A stretch of DNA of 33,765 nucleotides from positions 1-33,765 of the forward strand of contig PLRJ01000174.1 in NCBI GenBank assembly GCA_003163855.1, given 5' to 3'. The notes beneath the pieces were generated by a model that was not told the DNA's origin, searched no databases, and saw only the letters and a program-made list of their open reading frames with translations. Each line of letters opens with the position of its first letter. Position 1 is the first letter of the stretch. The position numbers and the translations under genes are program-made. The stretch comes from Bryobacterales bacterium. Lineage in GTDB: Bacteria; Acidobacteriota; Terriglobia; Bryobacterales; Bryobacteraceae. This document shows, one piece after another, positions 10,667-22,392 of the stretch.

Positions 10667-11791
10667 TTGGGGTTGATTTTAGCCGATTTATTGATGATCG
10701 GCTGCTGGGTGTATTGTGTTCTAGCGATTACAGCAGCCGTACGACATAAAAGACGCAAGCTGCGTCTGACTTTTCCTGGCGCCTCCACCGGCATCAGTAT
10801 CTTGAAACCGTTAGCGGGCCTGGACGAAGGTTTAGAAGACAATCTGCGCAGTTACTTTGAGCAGGAATTCTATCCTTACGAAATTCTTTTCGCGGTACGC
10901 GACACATCCGACCCAGCTGTTCCACTTGTGCGCCGGCTGATGGCGGAGTATGTTCACATACCATCCTTGCTGGTGATAACCGGCGAACCTCCTTATCCGC
11001 ATGCCAAGGTCTTCAGCCTGAAGTGCATGTTTGATAAGGCGCAATTCGATCTGATCGCGATGTGCGACAGCGACGTGCGCGTGGGTAGAGACTTCTGCCA
11101 GCGGCTTGCCCTCGAGTTTGAAGACGATGGCTTGGGTCTGGTCACTTGTCCTTATCGCGCGGTCTCGGGCTTTAGCATCTGGTCGAAGCTGGAAGCGCTG
11201 GGCATGAATACCGACTTTCATGCCGGCCTGTTCACCGCCGTCCTGATGGAAGGTAATACTACGTTTGCGGTTGGTCCGACGATTGTGGCTCGGCGCAGCG
11301 TGCTGCTGGGCATTGGCGGCATTGAACGCGTCAAAGATTATATTTCCGAAGATTACATGCTGGGCCGCATCGCTTCCGATCTGGGCTTCGGCGTGCGCTT
11401 TTCCTCCTATGTGATAGAGCATCGGATCGGCAGTGAAGGCTTGCTGGCGAACCTGGCGCATCGCCTGCGTTGGGCGCGCACCAGCCGCCGCTCACGCCCA
11501 TGGGGCTATGTCGGGCAGTTCTTTACGCATCCCATGCCGGTGAGTCTGCTGGCGTTTATAGTGTGGCCGGATTGCTGGCCACTGCTTGGTGTGACGGCTG
11601 TGCTGAGGACGGTGGAGGCGTGGATCGTCTCGGTGCGGGTGCTAGGGGCGAAGGTTCCGTGGGCGCTGCTGCCGTTGCAGGATGCACTGGGATTCGGGTT
11701 TTGGCTGGCTGGGTTCTTTGGAAAGTCGATCAGTTGGCGCGGGCAGCGGTATTTGTTGAACCGGGATGGGACGGTTGAATTGGCGGGTTGA
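10667..11791 (+). CDS. GT21-type glycosyltransferase (HpnI / ceramide glucosyltransferase-like)
   Basis: This 374-residue membrane-bound inverting glycosyltransferase has an N-terminal TM helix, a GT-A domain and hydrophobic C-terminal segments (about 285-350). The GT21 acidic motifs are present: VRDTSDPAV, CDSDVRV (DxD, nucleotide-sugar/metal binding) and SEDYMLG, with HRLRWAR in the place of the QxxRW motif. Family members glucosylate ceramide or, as HpnI, add N-acetylglucosamine to bacteriohopanetetrol. HpnI is the likelier bacterial role, but no other hopanoid genes are near. The start is TTG 10667 or, better spaced from AAAGGGGAC, TTG 10673. Confidence 0.82.
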   Translation: MGLILADLLMIGCWVYCVLAITAAVRHKRRKLRLTFPGASTGISILKPLAGLDEGLEDNLRSYFEQEFYPYEILFAVRDTSDPAVPLVRRLMAEYVHIPSLLVITGEPPYPHAKVFSLKCMFDKAQFDLIAMCDSDVRVGRDFCQRLALEFEDDGLGLVTCPYRAVSGFSIWSKLEALGMNTDFHAGLFTAVLMEGNTTFAVGPTIVARRSVLLGIGGIERVKDYISEDYMLGRIASDLGFGVRFSSYVIEHRIGSEGLLANLAHRLRWARTSRRSRPWGYVGQFFTHPMPVSLLAFIVWPDCWPLLGVTAVLRTVEAWIVSVRVLGAKVPWALLPLQDALGFGFWLAGFFGKSISWRGQRYLLNRDGTVELAG

Positions 11792-11856
11792 AGTCAGCAG
11801 CGTTGATCCGTTTTAATCGGTGGCCAATCTCATCCTGAGAACTCGACGGGCCGCTG

Positions 11857-11909
11857 ATCACCTCCGATGAACCGCCATGGGCCGGCCAGGGCTGCCAACC
11901 GGAGGTGAT
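11857..11909. repeat. Inverted repeat forming a long hairpin, upstream part of repeat copy 1
   Basis: ATCACCTCCG (11857-11866) and CGGAGGTGAT (11900-11909) form a perfect 10-bp stem with a 33-nt loop, between the glycosyltransferase gene and repeat copy 1. Part of this stretch (CGATGAAC, then GATGAAAAC) is also found before copy 2 at 18958, so the structured element may be longer than the conserved core. Confidence 0.5.
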
Positions 11910-11951
11910 GAAAACTTTTGGAAAGATGACGAACTACGGGCGTTGCGGTGA

Positions 11952-12028
11952 GGGGACACGCCTGCGCTTTTCGGACTTGGGTGGTTTGGTGGACGACAAG
12001 CCCGGAGTGTCCCCGAGGGACTTTTCGG
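11952..12028. repeat. Intergenic structured repeat, copy 1
   Basis: The core is GGGGACAC...GTGTCCCC (arms 11952-11959 and 12007-12014, 8-bp stem), with a conserved loop stretch CGGACTTGGGT and a conserved 3' tail GAGGG-CTTTTCGG. The second copy is at 19025-19098. Both lie between convergent genes. An open frame across this region (11905-12171) looks like chance. It may be a REP-like or RNA-structured element; no transposase is near. Confidence 0.7.
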
Positions 12029-12186: not shown

Positions 12187-13245
12187 TTATTCCCGCTTCA
12201 ACGCAAAATTCACAATCACACTCGTGATAACCGCTACCGGTCGGCCGTTTAGCATCACAGGCCGATACTTCCACTGCAGGACGGCTTCCCTGGCAGCATT
12301 CACCAGCAGCGGATGGCCGCGTACCAGTTGCAAATTTTGAACCGTGCCGTCTTCGCCAATGATAGCTGTGAACTCCACCGTTCCCGAGACACGTGCCGAT
12401 TTGGCGAGCGCCGGGTAAACCGGCGCAACTTTCTCGATGAGGTTGGCTTCGGCTACTGCGCCGCCGATGCGCACGGCGCCTGGCGGAGCATTCGACATCG
12501 GCGGATTCTTCACCGCTTCCAGATTCTGCTGCCACTTTGGGTTTTGCGGATCGAGCAGGGTCGCGCGCTCCATCAACTGCATGCCCAGTTTCCTCGTGTC
12601 CTCACCCGGCATTGAGGTCGCCATCATTCGGCCTGCAAGGCTGAGCAATTCAGCGTCGGAGGAAGCTAATAGGCGCGCCTTCAGGGCCTCGGCTTTCTCT
12701 AAGCTGAGCGGAAAAACCGGGTTTCCCACGTTGTTGCGTGGCACCGACTTTGCGAAGATCGAAGCTTCCGCCTCGGCATATTGTGTGGGCAGGCTGGCAC
12801 TGGCAGGAATCTTGCGTGCCTGCTCCAGCAGATCGACACTGCGCAAGGGATCGTTCGCCTCCATGAATCGAGCCGCGTTATAAAGGACGGCTGGCGAATC
12901 AGACCGCTTGCTGAGTTGGCCTTCCCAGGCGGCCTTCGCCAGAGAATAGTCAGCCGCATCCAAGTCAGCGATGTTAAGCGCCGCGGCCAGGATGGGGCTT
13001 TCCGGGCGGTTCTCAATCAGCCATATCATCTGCTGCAGATAAGCCGCTTTGTCGCCCGTCCTCCAGTAAGTTTTCATCAACTGCAGCCGCGCCCTGGCGT
13101 CGTCGGGATCGGCCTGCAACTTAGCCAGCAAAACGTCGGGCGGATCACTCGGAGGCGGATTTACTTGCCGCTCGCGAATGACTTGAGCTGGCAGCATCAT
13201 GCAGCCCATAAATATTGTTAAGACAACGCAGCAAAAACCACGCAC
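12187..13245 (-). CDS. Exported TPR-like protein with TonB C-terminal domain (second of tandem pair)
   Basis: A 352-residue protein with a signal peptide (hydrophobic 5-18, then LPAQ) and a helical, TPR-like region at about 35-240 (LLAKLQADPDDARARLQLMK, AVLYNAARFMEANDPLRSVDL). The C-terminal TonB domain at about 262-350 contains KVAPVYPALAKSARVSGTV, IGEDGTV and REAVLQWKYRP. TonB domains contact outer-membrane receptors, but the classical membrane anchor and proline-rich spacer are missing, so energy transduction is not assured. It starts 14 bp after a paralogue, clearly by tandem duplication. Confidence 0.82.
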   Translation of the reverse strand: MRGFCCVVLTIFMGCMMLPAQVIRERQVNPPPSDPPDVLLAKLQADPDDARARLQLMKTYWRTGDKAAYLQQMIWLIENRPESPILAAALNIADLDAADYSLAKAAWEGQLSKRSDSPAVLYNAARFMEANDPLRSVDLLEQARKIPASASLPTQYAEAEASIFAKSVPRNNVGNPVFPLSLEKAEALKARLLASSDAELLSLAGRMMATSMPGEDTRKLGMQLMERATLLDPQNPKWQQNLEAVKNPPMSNAPPGAVRIGGAVAEANLIEKVAPVYPALAKSARVSGTVEFTAIIGEDGTVQNLQLVRGHPLLVNAAREAVLQWKYRPVMLNGRPVAVITSVIVNFALKRE

Positions 13246-13259
13246 AACGCCTCCTCGCT

Positions 13260-14285
13260 TTACTGGCTTAAACTGAAGTTCACACTGACTTCCGTTACAA
13301 CCGCGACCGGAATATTGTTCACCAGCGTCGCTTTATACTGCCACTGCAGAACCGCGTCTCTGGCCGCACTCACCAGCAGCGGCGCTCCGCTAATCAAATC
13401 CAAGTGCTGAACTGAGCCGTCTTCGTCAATAATGGCGGTGAACGTTACCACGCCTTCTATCCGGCCCGACTTCGCCAGCGGCGGATAAACCGGCGCGACC
13501 TTGTTGATTAGATTTGCTTCCGCTTCGGCGCTCGAAATGCGCATTGCTCCAGTGCTCTTGAGGCGCGACTCGGGACTCACTTCCGCTAGCGCGTTGCGCC
13601 ACTTTGGACCCTCGTAGCTGGCACGCTGCATTAGACGTAGCCCGGCCTTCTTGATTTCGGGATCGAGTCCACTGGTAACCAGAACCTTGCCCGCTCCGCT
13701 CAGCAGTTCTGGGTCCGAAGAATCCGTCAGTCGCGCCTTTAATGCGTTCGCGCTGTCGAGCGTCAGCGGCAGTGACGGATTTCCATCCGCATCGCGCACA
13801 AAAGCCATCAGATAGGCTGTTCCTTCCGCTGCCACATAGGCCGACTGCGAGGGAGCCAGTTTACGCGCTTGTTCCAACAGATCAATCGCGCGAACGGGAT
13901 CGCTTGGTGTCAGGAAGACAGCGGCGTTATACAGCACTGCAGGGGACTTGCTGCGCTTTTCCAGTTGCACCTCCCAATCGGACTTCGCCTGCTCATAGTC
14001 GCTGGGCGAATTCAACACACCGCCGGAGGGCTTCAGCTTGCCCTTCGTTCCCAAAACCGGACTGGCGGGCCGATTCTCAATTAACCAGAAAACCTGCTGG
14101 GCGTAGGCTTCTGAGTCTTTGGCTTTGAGATAGGCGTCCATCAAGGCGGAACGAATGTCGTCGTTATTCGGGTTGGCTAAAAGCTTTTGTTCCAGGGCGA
14201 CGGGATCGGGCGCGTTCGCATCCTGCGCCGGTAAAAACAGAGTGACCAAAACAATCCCTAGAAGAGCGCGAAGCAAAAGCTGCAT
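13260..14285 (-). CDS. Exported TPR-like protein with TonB C-terminal domain (first of tandem pair)
   Basis: This 341-residue paralogue of the next gene has the same layout. A signal peptide (MQLLLRALLGIVLVTLFLPA, then Q) is followed by repeated helical segments (LEQKLLANPNNDDIRSALMD, AVLYNAAVFLTPSDPVRAIDLLEQARKL) and a TonB C-terminal domain (KVAPVYPPLAKSGRIEGVV, IDEDGSVQHL, RDAVLQWQYKATLV). The shared motifs QQ-FWLIENRPASPVL and KSPAVLYNAA show close relationship with the downstream copy. It lies 36 bp after the penicillin-acylase gene and is probably co-transcribed with it. The substrate or partner is unknown. Confidence 0.82.
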   Translation of the reverse strand: MQLLLRALLGIVLVTLFLPAQDANAPDPVALEQKLLANPNNDDIRSALMDAYLKAKDSEAYAQQVFWLIENRPASPVLGTKGKLKPSGGVLNSPSDYEQAKSDWEVQLEKRSKSPAVLYNAAVFLTPSDPVRAIDLLEQARKLAPSQSAYVAAEGTAYLMAFVRDADGNPSLPLTLDSANALKARLTDSSDPELLSGAGKVLVTSGLDPEIKKAGLRLMQRASYEGPKWRNALAEVSPESRLKSTGAMRISSAEAEANLINKVAPVYPPLAKSGRIEGVVTFTAIIDEDGSVQHLDLISGAPLLVSAARDAVLQWQYKATLVNNIPVAVVTEVSVNFSLSQ

Positions 14286-16603: not shown

Positions 16604-17950
16604 ATGGCCTTACGCTTCATCGTTTTGTTCCTGATCTTGGCCACCAACGGCTTCTTCGCCGCGGCGGAAGTTTCTCTCGTTTCGGTGCGGCAGTCGCGGC
16701 TGCGCGAACTCGCGGCGCAAGGCCAGCCGGGCGCGCAAAGCGCACTCAGTCTGCTGGCGAATCCGGGGCGTTTACTTTCTGTGACGCAAGTGGGTGTCAC
16801 GCTGGCGAGCCTGGGCCTCGGCTGGGCTGGCGAAGATACGCTCTACCGCCTGTGGCGGGACGCTTTCCAATCGTTTACGCTGCCGGTATCTCCGCTCGTC
16901 CTGCAAGGCGTGGCCTTCGCGCTGGCTTTCCTGATTATCAGCTACGCCCACGTCATCATCGGTGAGGTTGTTCCCAAGAACCTGGCCATTCAGAAGGCGG
17001 ACCGGATTGCCGTTCTAGCCGCGCCCGTGCTGTTGGTGTTTTATCGCATTTCGCAGCCGTTTGTGATCGTGATCGAACGCACTTCGGCCCTCATTCTGAG
17101 AACGTTTGGTCTAGGTCAAGCGCAGGCGCGCGGCGGGCACAGTCCGGAAGAACTGAAGTTCATCATCCAATCGAGCCGTCATGCGGGCCATCTGCAGGAA
17201 TTTCAGGAAGACGCCATTCAGAACCTGATTGAACTGTCAGACTATTACGCGCGTGAAATTATGACGCCGCGCAACGAGATTGTTTCGCTGCCATTAGACG
17301 CGAGTCTCGAAACCGTCCTCAACGTCATGACCGAGCACAAGTACGCGCGCCTGCCCGTTTACGAGGACCGGCCAGAGCAGATCATCGGCATAGTGCATTA
17401 TAAGGATCTGATGCCGGAGTGGAACGAGCGCCGCTTTGCCCACGACCGAAAACGCACGGCGCGCCCATTCCGCCTGCGCCGTTTTCTGCGCAAACCATTG
17501 GTGGTGCCTGAAACCAAGCCGCTGAACCAGTTGATAGATGAGTTCCACAAAGCCCACACCCACATGGCGCTGGTGGTGGATGAGTTTGGCACCGTTACCG
17601 GGCTGGTTACTTTGGGCGATGTTCTGGAGCAGGTCTTCGGCGACATCGGCGACGAGCATGATGTCGTCCGCCCCGCGCCCAGCATGCAGCAGCGCACGCT
17701 CGACCTGGAAGGAAGCACCACCATTCGCGAACTGGAAACGCGCTACAACATCATCCTGCCGAGCGAGGCCGAGTTTGAGACATTGGCGGGCTTCATGCTT
17801 TATCAGTTCGGCTATATTCCCAAAGAGAAGGATCACGTGGAGTACGGTGGCCGCAGGTTCACCGTTTCGGCCATGGACCGCAACCGTATCGCCATGGTGA
17901 CGATCGAGAAACTGCTTGATCCGAAGCCTCAGGCCGAGGCCGCCAAGTAA
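16604..17950 (+). CDS. CNNM/CorC-type membrane protein (DUF21, CBS pair, CorC_HlyC)
   Basis: This 448-residue protein is often annotated as hemolysin C/TlyC or magnesium/cobalt efflux protein. It has a DUF21 transmembrane domain (about 1-185, with ATNGFFAAAEVSL and the GEVVPKNLA motif). Two CBS domains follow (about 213-275 with MTPRNEIVSLP and RLPVYEDRPEQIIGIVHYKD, and about 295-350 with HMALVVDEFGTVTGLVTLGD). A C-terminal CorC_HlyC domain (about 360-435) closes it. Homologues act in Mg2+ export, with CBS domains binding adenine nucleotides. The start ATG lies only 44 bp from the divergent acylase gene, so the promoters overlap. The stop overlaps the next ATG by one base. Confidence 0.92.
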   Translation: MALRFIVLFLILATNGFFAAAEVSLVSVRQSRLRELAAQGQPGAQSALSLLANPGRLLSVTQVGVTLASLGLGWAGEDTLYRLWRDAFQSFTLPVSPLVLQGVAFALAFLIISYAHVIIGEVVPKNLAIQKADRIAVLAAPVLLVFYRISQPFVIVIERTSALILRTFGLGQAQARGGHSPEELKFIIQSSRHAGHLQEFQEDAIQNLIELSDYYAREIMTPRNEIVSLPLDASLETVLNVMTEHKYARLPVYEDRPEQIIGIVHYKDLMPEWNERRFAHDRKRTARPFRLRRFLRKPLVVPETKPLNQLIDEFHKAHTHMALVVDEFGTVTGLVTLGDVLEQVFGDIGDEHDVVRPAPSMQQRTLDLEGSTTIRELETRYNIILPSEAEFETLAGFMLYQFGYIPKEKDHVEYGGRRFTVSAMDRNRIAMVTIEKLLDPKPQAEAAK

Positions 17951-18888
17951 TGCCCGAGCGCCCAAACCGCCTGGCGTACCTGGCGCTGGCGTCGGTCAGC
18001 TTCTTCTGGGGAACCACTTACCTGGGCATCCGCATCAGCCTGGAAGGCCTTCCGCCGTTTTATCTGATTGCCATCCGCTATGTCATCTCCGGCGGCCTGC
18101 TTCTAGTGGGGGCGGCGCTCAGCGGCATGACCATCCCGCGCGGCCGTGAACTTTGGCTGACGTCCGTTTGCGGCGTTCTGTGCATCGCGCTTGGCAACGG
18201 TTGCCTGGCTGTGTCGGAGACCATGATCCCCAGTGGAACGGCTGCGCTTTTTTACACTACGACGCCGTTCTGGATGGTTGGCATTGATGCCCTGCTGCCT
18301 CGCGGCAAGAGGCCGCTTCGAAACACCATCTACGGCCTGCTGCTGGGCCTGTTCGGAGTGATTTATCTCATCTATCCCGATTTCATTCGCGAAGGGCTGG
18401 GCGGTAAAACCCTGATTGGCTTCCTGCTGCTTCAACTCGGCGCTTTAGGTTGGGTCTTCGGAGCGCTTCTCCAGAAACGCATCCCGTCCCAAGCTACGCC
18501 GATGATCAGCGGAGCGGTGCAACAAGTCGCCGCCGGTTTATTCATGTTCGCTCCGGCTTCGCTGTTTGAGAGGCTGCCGCACAGCATAGCCGCAAGGCCC
18601 ATCTACGCGGTTCTCTATCTGGTCGTGTTCGGCTCGATTGTGGGGTATAGCGCGTTCATTTATTCTGTGGCGAAGCTGCCTGTGGCGTTGATGTCTATCT
18701 ACACCTTCGTCAATCCAATCGTTGCCGTTTTTCTGGGCTGGCTGTTCTTCCGCGAGCCTTTCGGAACGCGGGGGGTAATCGCGATGGGCATCATTTTTGT
18801 GGGTATTGCTGTGGTCCGCTGGAGCGAATCGCGCGGCCATAAACAATCGTTGCCTGTGCTGGATACGGAAGCCGCTGGTGTCAGCTGA
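17950..18888 (+). CDS. EamA/DMT-superfamily transporter
   Basis: This 312-residue protein has ten predicted TM helices in two EamA repeats (about 10-140 and 155-292). The start is typical (SFFWGTTYLGIRISLEGLPP), with FYLIAIRYVISGGLLL, GTAALFYTTTPFWMVG and a second repeat ending FREPFGTRGVIAMGIIFVGI. Family members export amino acids, nucleotides or other small metabolites by a proton-coupled mechanism; the substrate here is unknown. The TAATG overlap makes it translationally coupled to the CNNM-like gene. Repeat copy 2 follows the end of the gene. Confidence 0.9.
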   Translation: MPERPNRLAYLALASVSFFWGTTYLGIRISLEGLPPFYLIAIRYVISGGLLLVGAALSGMTIPRGRELWLTSVCGVLCIALGNGCLAVSETMIPSGTAALFYTTTPFWMVGIDALLPRGKRPLRNTIYGLLLGLFGVIYLIYPDFIREGLGGKTLIGFLLLQLGALGWVFGALLQKRIPSQATPMISGAVQQVAAGLFMFAPASLFERLPHSIAARPIYAVLYLVVFGSIVGYSAFIYSVAKLPVALMSIYTFVNPIVAVFLGWLFFREPFGTRGVIAMGIIFVGIAVVRWSESRGHKQSLPVLDTEAAGVS

Positions 18889-19024
18889 CCGAATCGGCGT
18901 TCCTCAGCGTTGATCAGCCGCCCATTCATCTTAAAGCTCGGTTTCCTATATGGCCGCCGATGAACGTGATGAGCCGGCGCGAGCGGCCCCGCCTGAGATG
19001 AAAACGTTCATGGACCTTTCGGTA

Positions 19025-19098
19025 GGGGACACGCCTGCGTTTCGGACTTGGGTAGCGAATCGGCAACTAGCCCGGCGTGTCCCCGAGGGGCTTTTCGG
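19025..19098. repeat. Intergenic structured repeat, copy 2
   Basis: GGGGACACGCC (19025-19035) and GGCGTGTCCCC (19074-19084) make a perfect 11-bp stem. The loop contains TTTCGGACTTGGGT and the 3' tail is GAGGGGCTTTTCGG, both shared with copy 1. The element lies between convergent genes (EamA transporter ending at 18888, LolA-like gene ending at 19129), as does copy 1. The upstream 18889-19024 holds no gene; it contains CGATGAAC and GATGAAAAC also seen before copy 1. Confidence 0.7.
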
Positions 19099-19128
19099 TT
19101 GCTGGAAGAGCAAAAAGCGGAATTCCAC

Positions 19129-19848
19129 TTACCGCTTGCCACCGGAAACAATCACTGCGGCCTGCGGCTTGCTAAAAATCACCGGGTCCAGTTCAAGATT
19201 ATTTCTTACGTTCTTAATATGAAAGTCTTCTCCACTCCCGCCTTTATCCGTTGTCCGGTGCACGATATTGAACGGGAACTGCACTCCGTTCACTGGTTTA
19301 TAGTCCAGAAACTGAATGGTAGTCGTAAAGTAAGCCGATGTTTCGCCCTTCTGTTCAATGCGCGCCAATAAGTGCGTTCGCGCATCGAAGTAAAAAGTTG
19401 CCTGCGCCAGCGCGTTAGGCGCGACGATAATATCCATGTCCTTGTCGTCCTCGCGCTTAGGCGCCTGCACCGACAAATCGTTGTACATTTGTTTCAGCGC
19501 TGCATAGCGCAGCGGATTGGCATCAATTTCCATTGGCAGTTCATCGCCTTTGCCAAAGCGGTGAACTTTCTTGCGCTTGTTGTAGGTCCACCCGGCACTA
19601 CCATCGAAGCCGCTCTTCTCCTTACCTTCCAGCAGCAGCACCTTGTCTGGCTTGGCCCAGTAATATGTAGCCTTCAATCCAAGCCGCAGAGTCCCAGTGA
19701 CCTCGCGCGAATGGATCGCATCAATCGCCGCCTGACCACCTAACGCCTGCACGTAGGCTGTCACAATGTCATCAACTGTCCGAGCGTTCTCCGCCCGCAC
19801 CGGGAGGCAGAACAGGAAAACTCCGAGCCATTCGAAACGTAAGCGCAT
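19129..19848 (-). CDS. Exported LolA/LppX-fold-like protein
   Basis: A 239-residue protein with a signal peptide (MRLRFEWLGVFLFCLPVRAE), then VDDIVTAYVQALGGQAAIDA, a frequent opening of small exported proteins with an outer-membrane lipoprotein-sorting (LolA-like) fold. The body is beta-rich: TGTLRLGLKATYYWAKPDKV, FDGSAGWTYN, FYFDARTHLLARIEQKG, TTIQFLDYKPVNGVQFPF. Such proteins are periplasmic and may carry lipids, but the role is unproven. I chose ATG 19848 over GTG 19851 because AGAAGG is then better spaced. It is divergent from osmC. Confidence 0.68.
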   Translation of the reverse strand: MRLRFEWLGVFLFCLPVRAENARTVDDIVTAYVQALGGQAAIDAIHSREVTGTLRLGLKATYYWAKPDKVLLLEGKEKSGFDGSAGWTYNKRKKVHRFGKGDELPMEIDANPLRYAALKQMYNDLSVQAPKREDDKDMDIIVAPNALAQATFYFDARTHLLARIEQKGETSAYFTTTIQFLDYKPVNGVQFPFNIVHRTTDKGGSGEDFHIKNVRNNLELDPVIFSKPQAAVIVSGGKR

Positions 19849-19890
19849 CACACCTTCTAAAGTAGAGGAAACAGCGCGAAGGACGCATGC

Positions 19891-21805: not shown

Positions 21806-22264
21806 ATGCCTGAAGCAACTACTGTTCTGCCCGACCTTGGCTGTGCCTGCGCCACCATCCGGCGCGCGGCCCGGTTGGTGACGCAACTTTACAGCGAAGA
21901 GCTGAGCCAAAAGCTGGAGCCCACGCAATATTCATTACTCTCGGCGCTCAGGCTCGAACCCGGCGCGAGTCAGTCGAGGCTTGGACGCGCGCTGGGCCTC
22001 GACAAAACCACCATGTCGCGCAGTCTTCGCTTGATGGAAAGGCATGGCTGGATCGAGCGGGGTCAAAGCGACGATCAGCGCGAGCGTGGATTCCAGCTAA
22101 CACCGCTGGGAAAGAAACTGTTCCGCGAGGCAAAACCCCGCTGGGCAAAAGCGCAAGCCAGGTTGGGCGACGGCCTGAAGCCAGGCGAACTGGAAGACCT
22201 GCTGCGCGCAGTGAATCGTATTGCCGAAGCAGCCCTCGCGATGCAGCAGGCCACAGATCCGTGA
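21806..22264 (+). CDS. MarR-family transcriptional regulator
   Basis: This 152-residue winged-helix regulator has a helical N-terminus with a Cys-Ala-Cys pair (Cys13, Cys15 in GCACATIRRAARLVTQLY). The recognition region is SRLGRALGLDKTTMSRSLRLM, the wing is SDDQRERGFQLTPLGKKLF, and a dimerisation helix follows. MarR proteins bind palindromes and release on ligand binding or cysteine oxidation; the N-terminal cysteines could be redox-active, which is a guess. It likely controls its own operon through the palindrome at 21403-21422. The last codons run into an inverted repeat. Confidence 0.88.
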   Translation: MPEATTVLPDLGCACATIRRAARLVTQLYSEELSQKLEPTQYSLLSALRLEPGASQSRLGRALGLDKTTMSRSLRLMERHGWIERGQSDDQRERGFQLTPLGKKLFREAKPRWAKAQARLGDGLKPGELEDLLRAVNRIAEAALAMQQATDP

Positions 22265-22392
22265 CAGTCACCATAACTCCCCATTTCTCCTGCGGAGAAG
22301 TTATCGGGAGTTATGGTGACGGGAGTTATGGTGACTGTCACGGATCTCAATCACGGATCTCAATCGGGAGTTATGGTGACTGTCACGGATCT
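22255..22392. repeat. Cluster of 27-bp inverted and direct repeats
   Basis: A 27-bp unit occurs inverted at 22255-22281 and directly at 22321-22347 and 22366-22392, all identical, with a 15-bp partial copy at 22306-22320. The unit contains GGGAGTTATGGTGACTGTCA followed by CGGATCT. A 13-bp tandem pair (TCACGGATCTCAA) lies at 22338-22363, and TTCTCC-TGC-GGAGAA (22285-22299) sits in the first loop. The array fills the gap between the convergent marR and folK genes and begins within the last marR codons. It may act as a bidirectional terminator or be a REP-type element. Confidence 0.85.

Follow-up and report, generated by a model that had tools for sequence, protein, structure and literature searches.

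An apparently new family of dispersed, mobile-looking DNA hairpins in Bryobacterales genomes

The window, by which we mean the whole stretch of DNA analysed here, covers positions 1 to 33,765 of contig PLRJ01000174.1 (33,765 nucleotides) from the Bryobacterales assembly GCA_003163855.1. It contains two copies of a hairpin whose core we call H: 58-66 nt with constant ends (5' GGGGACACnCCTG, 3' CGGAnTGTCCCC) and a free middle. Each copy lies between the ends of two convergent genes. The genome to which the window belongs (G000 in our numbering, in which G, C and L stand for genomes, contigs and loci) is a Bryobacterales-like draft of 6.33 Mb in 253 contigs, 89% complete. The features are as follows.

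10667-11791, + strand: glycosyltransferase gene, upstream neighbour of copy 1
11853-11939, + strand: upstream module M of copy 1 (own-genome search and alignment)
11857-11866 and 11900-11909, + strand: arms ATCACCTCCG and CGGAGGTGAT of a copy-specific 10-bp hairpin inside M
11938-12028, + strand: repeat unit of copy 1, made of left flank GGGCGTTGCGGTGA, H and right flank CGAGGGACTTTTCGG (30-copy own-genome alignment)
11952-12014, + strand: hairpin core H, copy 1, 63 nt, GGGGACACGCCTG ... AGCCCGGAGTGTCCCC (sequence and exact pattern match)
11952-11959 and 12007-12014, + strand: stem arms GGGGACAC and GTGTCCCC of copy 1, with CGGACTTGGGT between them (sequence)
12187-13245, - strand: gene for a TonB_C protein, convergent with the glycosyltransferase gene
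17950-18888, + strand: EamA transporter gene, upstream neighbour of copy 2
19012-19110, + strand: full repeat unit of copy 2 (covariance-model positions 1-99; 108.6 bits from a model to which copy 2 itself contributed as one of 30 copies)
19025-19084, + strand: hairpin core H of copy 2 (60 nt; its 11-bp stem GGGGACACGCC/GGCGTGTCCCC pairs without mismatch)
19025-19032 and 19077-19084, within the preceding feature: stem arms GGGGACAC and GTGTCCCC of copy 2; loop and tail as in copy 1
19129-19851, - strand: open reading frame without a Pfam match, convergent with the EamA transporter gene

An earlier note on this DNA had described a stem, loop and tail repeated about 7 kb apart, both times at convergent gene ends. 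The coordinates agree with this, as does the tail, which forms a 33-nt direct repeat of 91% identity in the two copies. The note also drew attention to conserved loop bases beyond the stem, and rightly so: unpaired bases are conserved in the own-genome alignment. The unit of copy 1 is truncated at its right end compared with many other copies, which run on into GTTGCGGGAAGA. Next to copy 1, two adjacent TonB C-terminal genes on the minus strand (12187-13245 and 13260-14285) share 71% identity over 216 nt (12265-12480 versus 13335-13550), and are likely the result of a tandem duplication.

Alignment of 30 copies from the window's own genome, a few of them incomplete, gave the consensus unit GGGCTTTGCGGTA - GGGGACACgCCTGCG..TCGGACTTGGGTgg..(variable)..AGCCCGGAGTGTCCCC - GAGgGGCTTTTCGGTTGCGGGAAGA. 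The stem of H reads GGGGACACnCC/GGnGTGTCCCC, with frequent mismatches at n, and the middle varies even inside one genome. The length range given above is that of the exact-pattern places listed, for which 47-77 nt were allowed; in 158 distinct cores it is 59-65 nt (47-65 allowed), bar a single core of 55 nt that contains N. Among the pattern matches listed, every genus shows the same asymmetry between the two arms, a property that is partly fixed by the pattern itself.

The repeated unit extends beyond H on both sides. Module M is present at five places in the own genome (E <= 0.001), each immediately 5' of H (at C79 of an H remnant only), and the outer flanks of the five places do not align by eye. 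The 10-bp hairpin with CCTCC/GGAGG arms that the earlier note placed just upstream does exist in copy 1, where it folds with a z of -3.2 alone and -1.7 with more flank, but the other four copies of M fold differently and do not form it. Downstream of nearly every copy lies a repeat R, GGCTTTTCGGTTGCGGGAAGA, with 26 pattern matches (reversed control 0), 25 of which come after H, a partial H or an H remnant; the remaining one (C183:12686) is without H by the searches made. In addition, similar GGGGCTTTTCGGT-like stretches are found on either side of H in the own genome.

The genome-wide count proposed in the earlier note returned 45 BLAST matches at E <= 0.001 for the consensus unit against the own draft genome, spread over many contigs. 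Some copies form head-to-tail arrays of two to three units, at about 105 bp per unit, with three units each on C72 and C192. Since copies and arrays also occur at contig ends (C19, C245, C193, C70, C179, C136 and C62), the arrays probably break draft assemblies. Two contigs, C115 (L096) and C192 (L012), carry near-identical gene ends, followed by H on C192 and by the remnant GGGGAGTCGCCGAG on C115. The remnant lacks almost all of H and could be a deletion product; we did not take the pair as insertion evidence.

Beyond the own genome, the exact H pattern was found in 11 of 237 family genomes, belonging to five of 76 genera, with no match for the reversed control. The number of exact-pattern copies per genome is 188, 24, 15, 11, 7, 5, 2, 1, 1, 1 and 1. 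In such matches the letters that the pattern specifies are conserved by construction, given that the matches were selected by their ends; the independent, unbiased evidence for constant ends is therefore that of the BLAST and covariance-model searches. The covariance model built from the 30 own copies matches 10 of 200 family genomes. G035 and G200 each have 19 model matches among the best 20 candidates scored per genome. For G200 this compares with one exact-pattern match, and its copies are mostly a diverged variant. A pattern scan of named genomes returned at least 112 stretches, and those among the matches listed are all from Bryobacterales/Bryobacteraceae metagenome assemblies (C20_concoct.bin.137, palsa_124, bog_105, fen_235 and, once, LS_FP_2_bin.112). 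High copy numbers are thus found in separate genera, with middles and arms that differ. No match to H was found in 72,556 plasmid records.

In six relatives (G001, G002, G105, G015, G229 and G201) the stem extends into genome-specific outer arms, for example GAAAAAG/CTTTTTC, GAAAATG/CATTTTC or GAAATCC/GGATTTC. Across genomes, different letters still pair in these arms. With identical flanks merged, and excluding the genomes without an outer stem (G000, G035, G223, G225 and G200), 204 of 312 positions pair in 26 distinct flanks. When right arms were reassigned among left arms, the mean was 173.7 and the maximum 195, and none of 2000 shuffles reached as high. Because copies of one genome have inherited their arms from common ancestors, there are few independent changes, about as many as there are arm types rather than 26. 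The two window copies, as the rest of their genome, have no outer stem. The covarying stem positions that the earlier note suggested looking for are thus seen in the outer stem of relatives, but not in the constant stem, where none of 12 pairs showed a compensatory double change among the 30 own copies. As the stem pairs hardly vary in these copies, own-genome variation says little for or against the stem. The note had named a lack of both further copies and covariation as fatal to its interpretation; instead, further copies exist and the relatives' outer stem covaries. Such covariation would be needed by a DNA hairpin as much as by an RNA.

Several observations point to mobility. In G035, eight loci have both long arms, GAAGCTGTAAAAGAATCC...GGATTCTTTTACAGCTTC, with small variations, and seven of the eight are exactly 99 bp long. 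The 3-bp flanks are identical on both sides in six of these eight loci (TGA/TGA or TCA/TCA), and in four of six loci in a stricter arm search. These flanks look like a probable 3-bp target duplication of the form TNA. Should the T and the A be part of the element itself, the duplication would be supported by the middle base alone, which is the same on both sides in all eight loci; the chance figure of 9e-7 for TNA flanks treats all three bases as free and is therefore too favourable. L199 and L306 share flanks, meaning that the G035 sites are not all independent. Four of the long-armed loci (L178, L199, L306 and L136) are bordered by a shared GC-rich stretch, CCGAGCCGCGACCG, and its inverse, and may sit in another repeat.

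H is also present in a contig of IMG/VR (IMGVR_UViG_3300026551_000007; L333:3295-3354), between matches to the terminase large subunit and the portal protein that point in the same direction; a major head protein gene lies further along this phage contig. Two copies lie within open reading frames. One (L146:360-421) stands in frame, with topoisomerase and DEAD-helicase domains on either side, and the other (L161:1931-1991) is in frame inside a 701-codon ORF without a Pfam match, rich in hydrophobic stretches. At L161, the frame seems to be longer by about 49 codons owing to a repeat of roughly 150 nt. Orthologous loci were also inspected for an empty site. A match to the upstream gene was found in eight relatives (68-75% identity), none of which has H in the stretch covered after the gene; of these loci, L270 has a lone TGTCCCC and the L268 sequence stops short of the gene's end. 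With intergenic DNA that cannot be aligned, these eight relatives define no precise insertion boundary. Similarly, the exact extent of the mobile unit is not fixed, since what is repeated extends beyond H and varies between genomes.

We consider it probable, though by no means certain, that H forms the core of a miniature DNA hairpin that is mobile but non-autonomous, of the REPIN, TIR-dimer or MITE class, and not a structured RNA. The earlier note had left two readings side by side, a small structured RNA and a REP-like mobile element, and as a whole is partly supported: the second reading is borne out by the many copies, the tandem arrays, the high counts in separate relatives, the probable target duplication of one subtype, and the copies in ORFs and in a phage contig. 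In such an element, the recognised part would be the two ends of H, leaving the middle free except for its length. The hairpin ends would be recognised, perhaps on single-stranded DNA, by a transposase whose gene lies or once lay elsewhere, and which would copy or move H into mostly intergenic DNA, where it might be tolerated above all between convergent genes. Head-to-tail arrays could then grow by unequal recombination or slippage. The narrow core length, the patchy distribution, the pairing outer stems of relatives and the five places of M with their unalignable outer flanks also speak for this reading.

As to the enzyme, a 2013 survey describes Y1 transposases with terminal inverted repeats and the motif GGGGWSAS (TIRYT), with a well-defined acidobacterial group, and states that the TIR repeat families occur as singles, dimers and clusters (PMC3733652). 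According to a 2018 study, its subclass 2.1 probably corresponds to the TIRYTs (PMC6006769), and the two papers describe TIRYTs together with a TIR repeat family in Acidobacteria (PMC3733652, PMC6006769). Both arms of H, represented by GGGGACAC, fit GGGGWSAS, which makes a TIRYT-type Y1 (HUH) transposase the lead candidate. For the long-armed G035 subtype, a DDE transposase would be more likely given the TNA flanks.

The earlier note had suggested looking for a REP-associated transposase, and our search found none attached to H. No H flanks a Y1 gene at the 45 loci examined (four own genes and 41 from relatives, out of 59 Y1 matches in 12 genomes, all drafts in which a gene could be missed), and the own genome's four Y1 genes all carry other inverted repeats. 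Likewise, in none of 237 genomes does GGGGACAC precede a Y1 gene at the distance tested (one gap range and one protein motif), while the positive control, GGGGACAG, lies upstream of a Y1 gene in 18 of the 237. Two candidates were discarded. At L107 a model match that lacks both GGGGACAC arms runs across the 3' terminus of a Y1 gene; at L262 some 550 nt of unrelated sequence separate a Y1 gene from an H beyond it, which we take as a coincidence. At L126, a lone GTGTCCCC lies about 1 kb from a Y1 match. No recurrent transposase family stands out beside H among 492 ORFs from 80 loci compared all-against-all. Nine neighbour clusters were checked against Pfam, and the rest by eye at most; ten representatives of the nine match ordinary families, among them those of outer membrane proteins, TPR, kinases and transporters, but no transposase.

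Other inverted repeats were encountered along the way. Within the window, positions 22255-22392 hold three copies of AGATCCGTGACAGTCACCATAACTCCC and its inverse, matching the inverted repeats around one of the own Y1 genes (L034, C134). This repeat makes up a second miniature family, in this case with a transposase beside it. The inverted repeat GTGGACGGAGG... of another Y1 gene (L031:1142-1943) also occurs beside H in L009 and L099.

A special case of the mobile hairpin, possible but rather unlikely, is that H is an internal part of an insertion-sequence MITE of the DDE type with TNA duplication, and that the own copies have decayed or been rearranged and lost their long terminal repeats. The eight long-armed G035 loci, with their near-uniform length and their TNA flanks, speak for it, as do related long arms in fen_235. 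Nonetheless, both arms are found at these eight loci only, whereas the distinct copies collected from G035 number about 120; long arms are missing from the 30 aligned own copies, and the outer arms of G001 and G002 are of other kinds. The genera have H in common, not the long terminal repeats. The shared flanks of L199 and L306 and the GC-rich stretch next to other sites reduce the number of independent events, and no parent insertion sequence was found, nor any match in the plasmid records mentioned above.

Alternatively, H could be a bidirectional intrinsic terminator, a GC-rich stem between an A run and a T run, conserved for that role and spread by duplication. We regard this as improbable. 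The outer arms of G001 and G002 (GAAAAAG/CTTTTTC or GAAAATG/CATTTTC) do have the shape of a bidirectional terminator, but the window copies are without this outer A/T stem. Placement is equally two-sided. Of 19 placed own copies or arrays, nine are convergent, seven codirectional and three divergent (7, 6 and 2 without L002, L003, L009 and L029, where a neighbour is doubtful). This count omits loci with ambiguous or missing neighbours, second array copies and the remnant L096, and relies on crude ORF calls. Compared with the background spaces at relatives' loci (84 convergent, 163 codirectional, 88 divergent; n = 335), nine or more convergent out of 19 has P = 0.03, in favour of a terminator; against it, the other ten are codirectional or divergent by the same crude calls. 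The phage copy lies between same-direction terminase and portal genes, some copies are in frame inside ORFs, and the job of a terminator does not require identical end letters across genera. A terminator scan found none, but it is blind to loops longer than 8 nt. Overall, the placement fits a terminator only weakly and does not fit an RNA of fixed position. It resembles that of REP-like repeats, which are best tolerated where no promoter is disturbed.

A more speculative reading, to which we likewise give little credence, sees in H a functional hairpin module that a conserved factor of the Bryobacterales would recognise and that different mobile carriers would have captured repeatedly. If this were true, the carriers would be a long-armed, TNA-flanked MITE-like element in one genus, A/T-armed palindromes in relatives, a direct-repeat unit in the own genome, and a phage. 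The narrow length, the unlike ends and the free middle would then describe the substrate of a new single-stranded-DNA recombination or transposition enzyme.

It is very unlikely that H arose passively, through tandem duplication and segmental copying with no transposase involved. The direct-repeat arrays, the GGGGCTTTTCGGT-like stretches on both sides of H and the frequent position of arrays at contig ends are what such a process could leave behind. However, it leaves unexplained the constant ends around a free middle of narrow length, the probable target duplications, the phage-contig copy and the high counts in separate genera.

Folding bears on the last alternative, in which the many copies would be paralogues of a non-coding structured RNA or of a regulatory RNA element. 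As single-stranded DNA, the bare window cores fold with z values of -1.95 (copy 1) and -3.05 (copy 2), the lowest among H copies being -7.9. As RNA with short flanks, the window copies reach 0.27 and -1.01, no better than shuffles. A second structure has two pairs with double changes, a number matched by 379 of 500 shuffles, while its covariation score was reached by 17 of 500. Despite that score, the conservation of unpaired bases among the own copies (5' TGCG..CGGACTT, 3' AGCCCGGA) and an arm asymmetry that recurs in every genus among the matches listed (partly pattern-fixed), we hold an RNA to be the least credible reading, and do not retain the structured RNA of the earlier note, given the RNA folds, the lack of any match to Rfam families at gathering thresholds within the window, the absence of double changes in the 12 stem pairs, second-structure changes no more frequent than in shuffles, the occurrence of H in 11 of 237 genomes only, and its location in all gene orientations with no fixed position relative to genes.

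The family is real, dispersed and mobile-looking, apparently new in sequence and known in kind. No published description was found in the literature searched (on REPIN/RAYT in Acidobacteria, TIRYT, MITE, repeats of Bryobacter and Solibacter, and the string GGGGACACGCC), subscription papers being outside the scope of that search. It adds a family of miniature mobile-looking hairpins to a lineage of soil bacteria represented here by metagenome assemblies; a single draft genome has 188 exact-pattern copies. Moreover, H offers a well-bounded substrate on which to study what enzyme moves hairpins lacking an adjacent transposase: its ends are constant, its length range is narrow, its middle is free, and its outer arms differ between genomes and yet pair.

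How does H compare with systems already described? Rickettsia palindromic elements are palindromes that lie in frame inside ORFs. The copies in L146 and L161 are likewise in-frame palindromes, a likeness of position, whereas H in the window's genome is mostly intergenic. Target duplications of the form TNA are assigned to DDE elements. The G035 subtype resembles a TNA-duplicating MITE in its 99 bp (seven of eight loci), its long terminal repeats and its identical TNA flanks (six of eight), unlike the window copies, which have neither long terminal repeats nor a demonstrated duplication. With the TIRtrons and TIR repeats of TIRYT transposases, as presented in the sections cited above (PMC3733652, PMC6006769), H shares the GGGGWSAS arm and the occurrence of short inverted repeats as singles, dimers and clusters. 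A TIR repeat, however, flanks its Y1 gene (GGGGACAG lies upstream of Y1 genes in 18 of 237 genomes), and H was not found to flank any. H works like a TIR dimer or a REPIN, and yet we do not file it as one, as the test for a parent gene failed. From REPINs and BIMEs it differs in that its two ends are unlike each other (GCCTG versus TCCGGGC on the reverse strand) and in that no cognate RAYT was found. It shares with them the two inverted conserved ends around a variable spacer, the mostly extragenic location, the many copies and the genome-specific families. The GTAG that marks the 5' foot of a REP hairpin is present in 18 of 29 own copies, though not in all (own genome only; one of the 30 is cut at a contig start).
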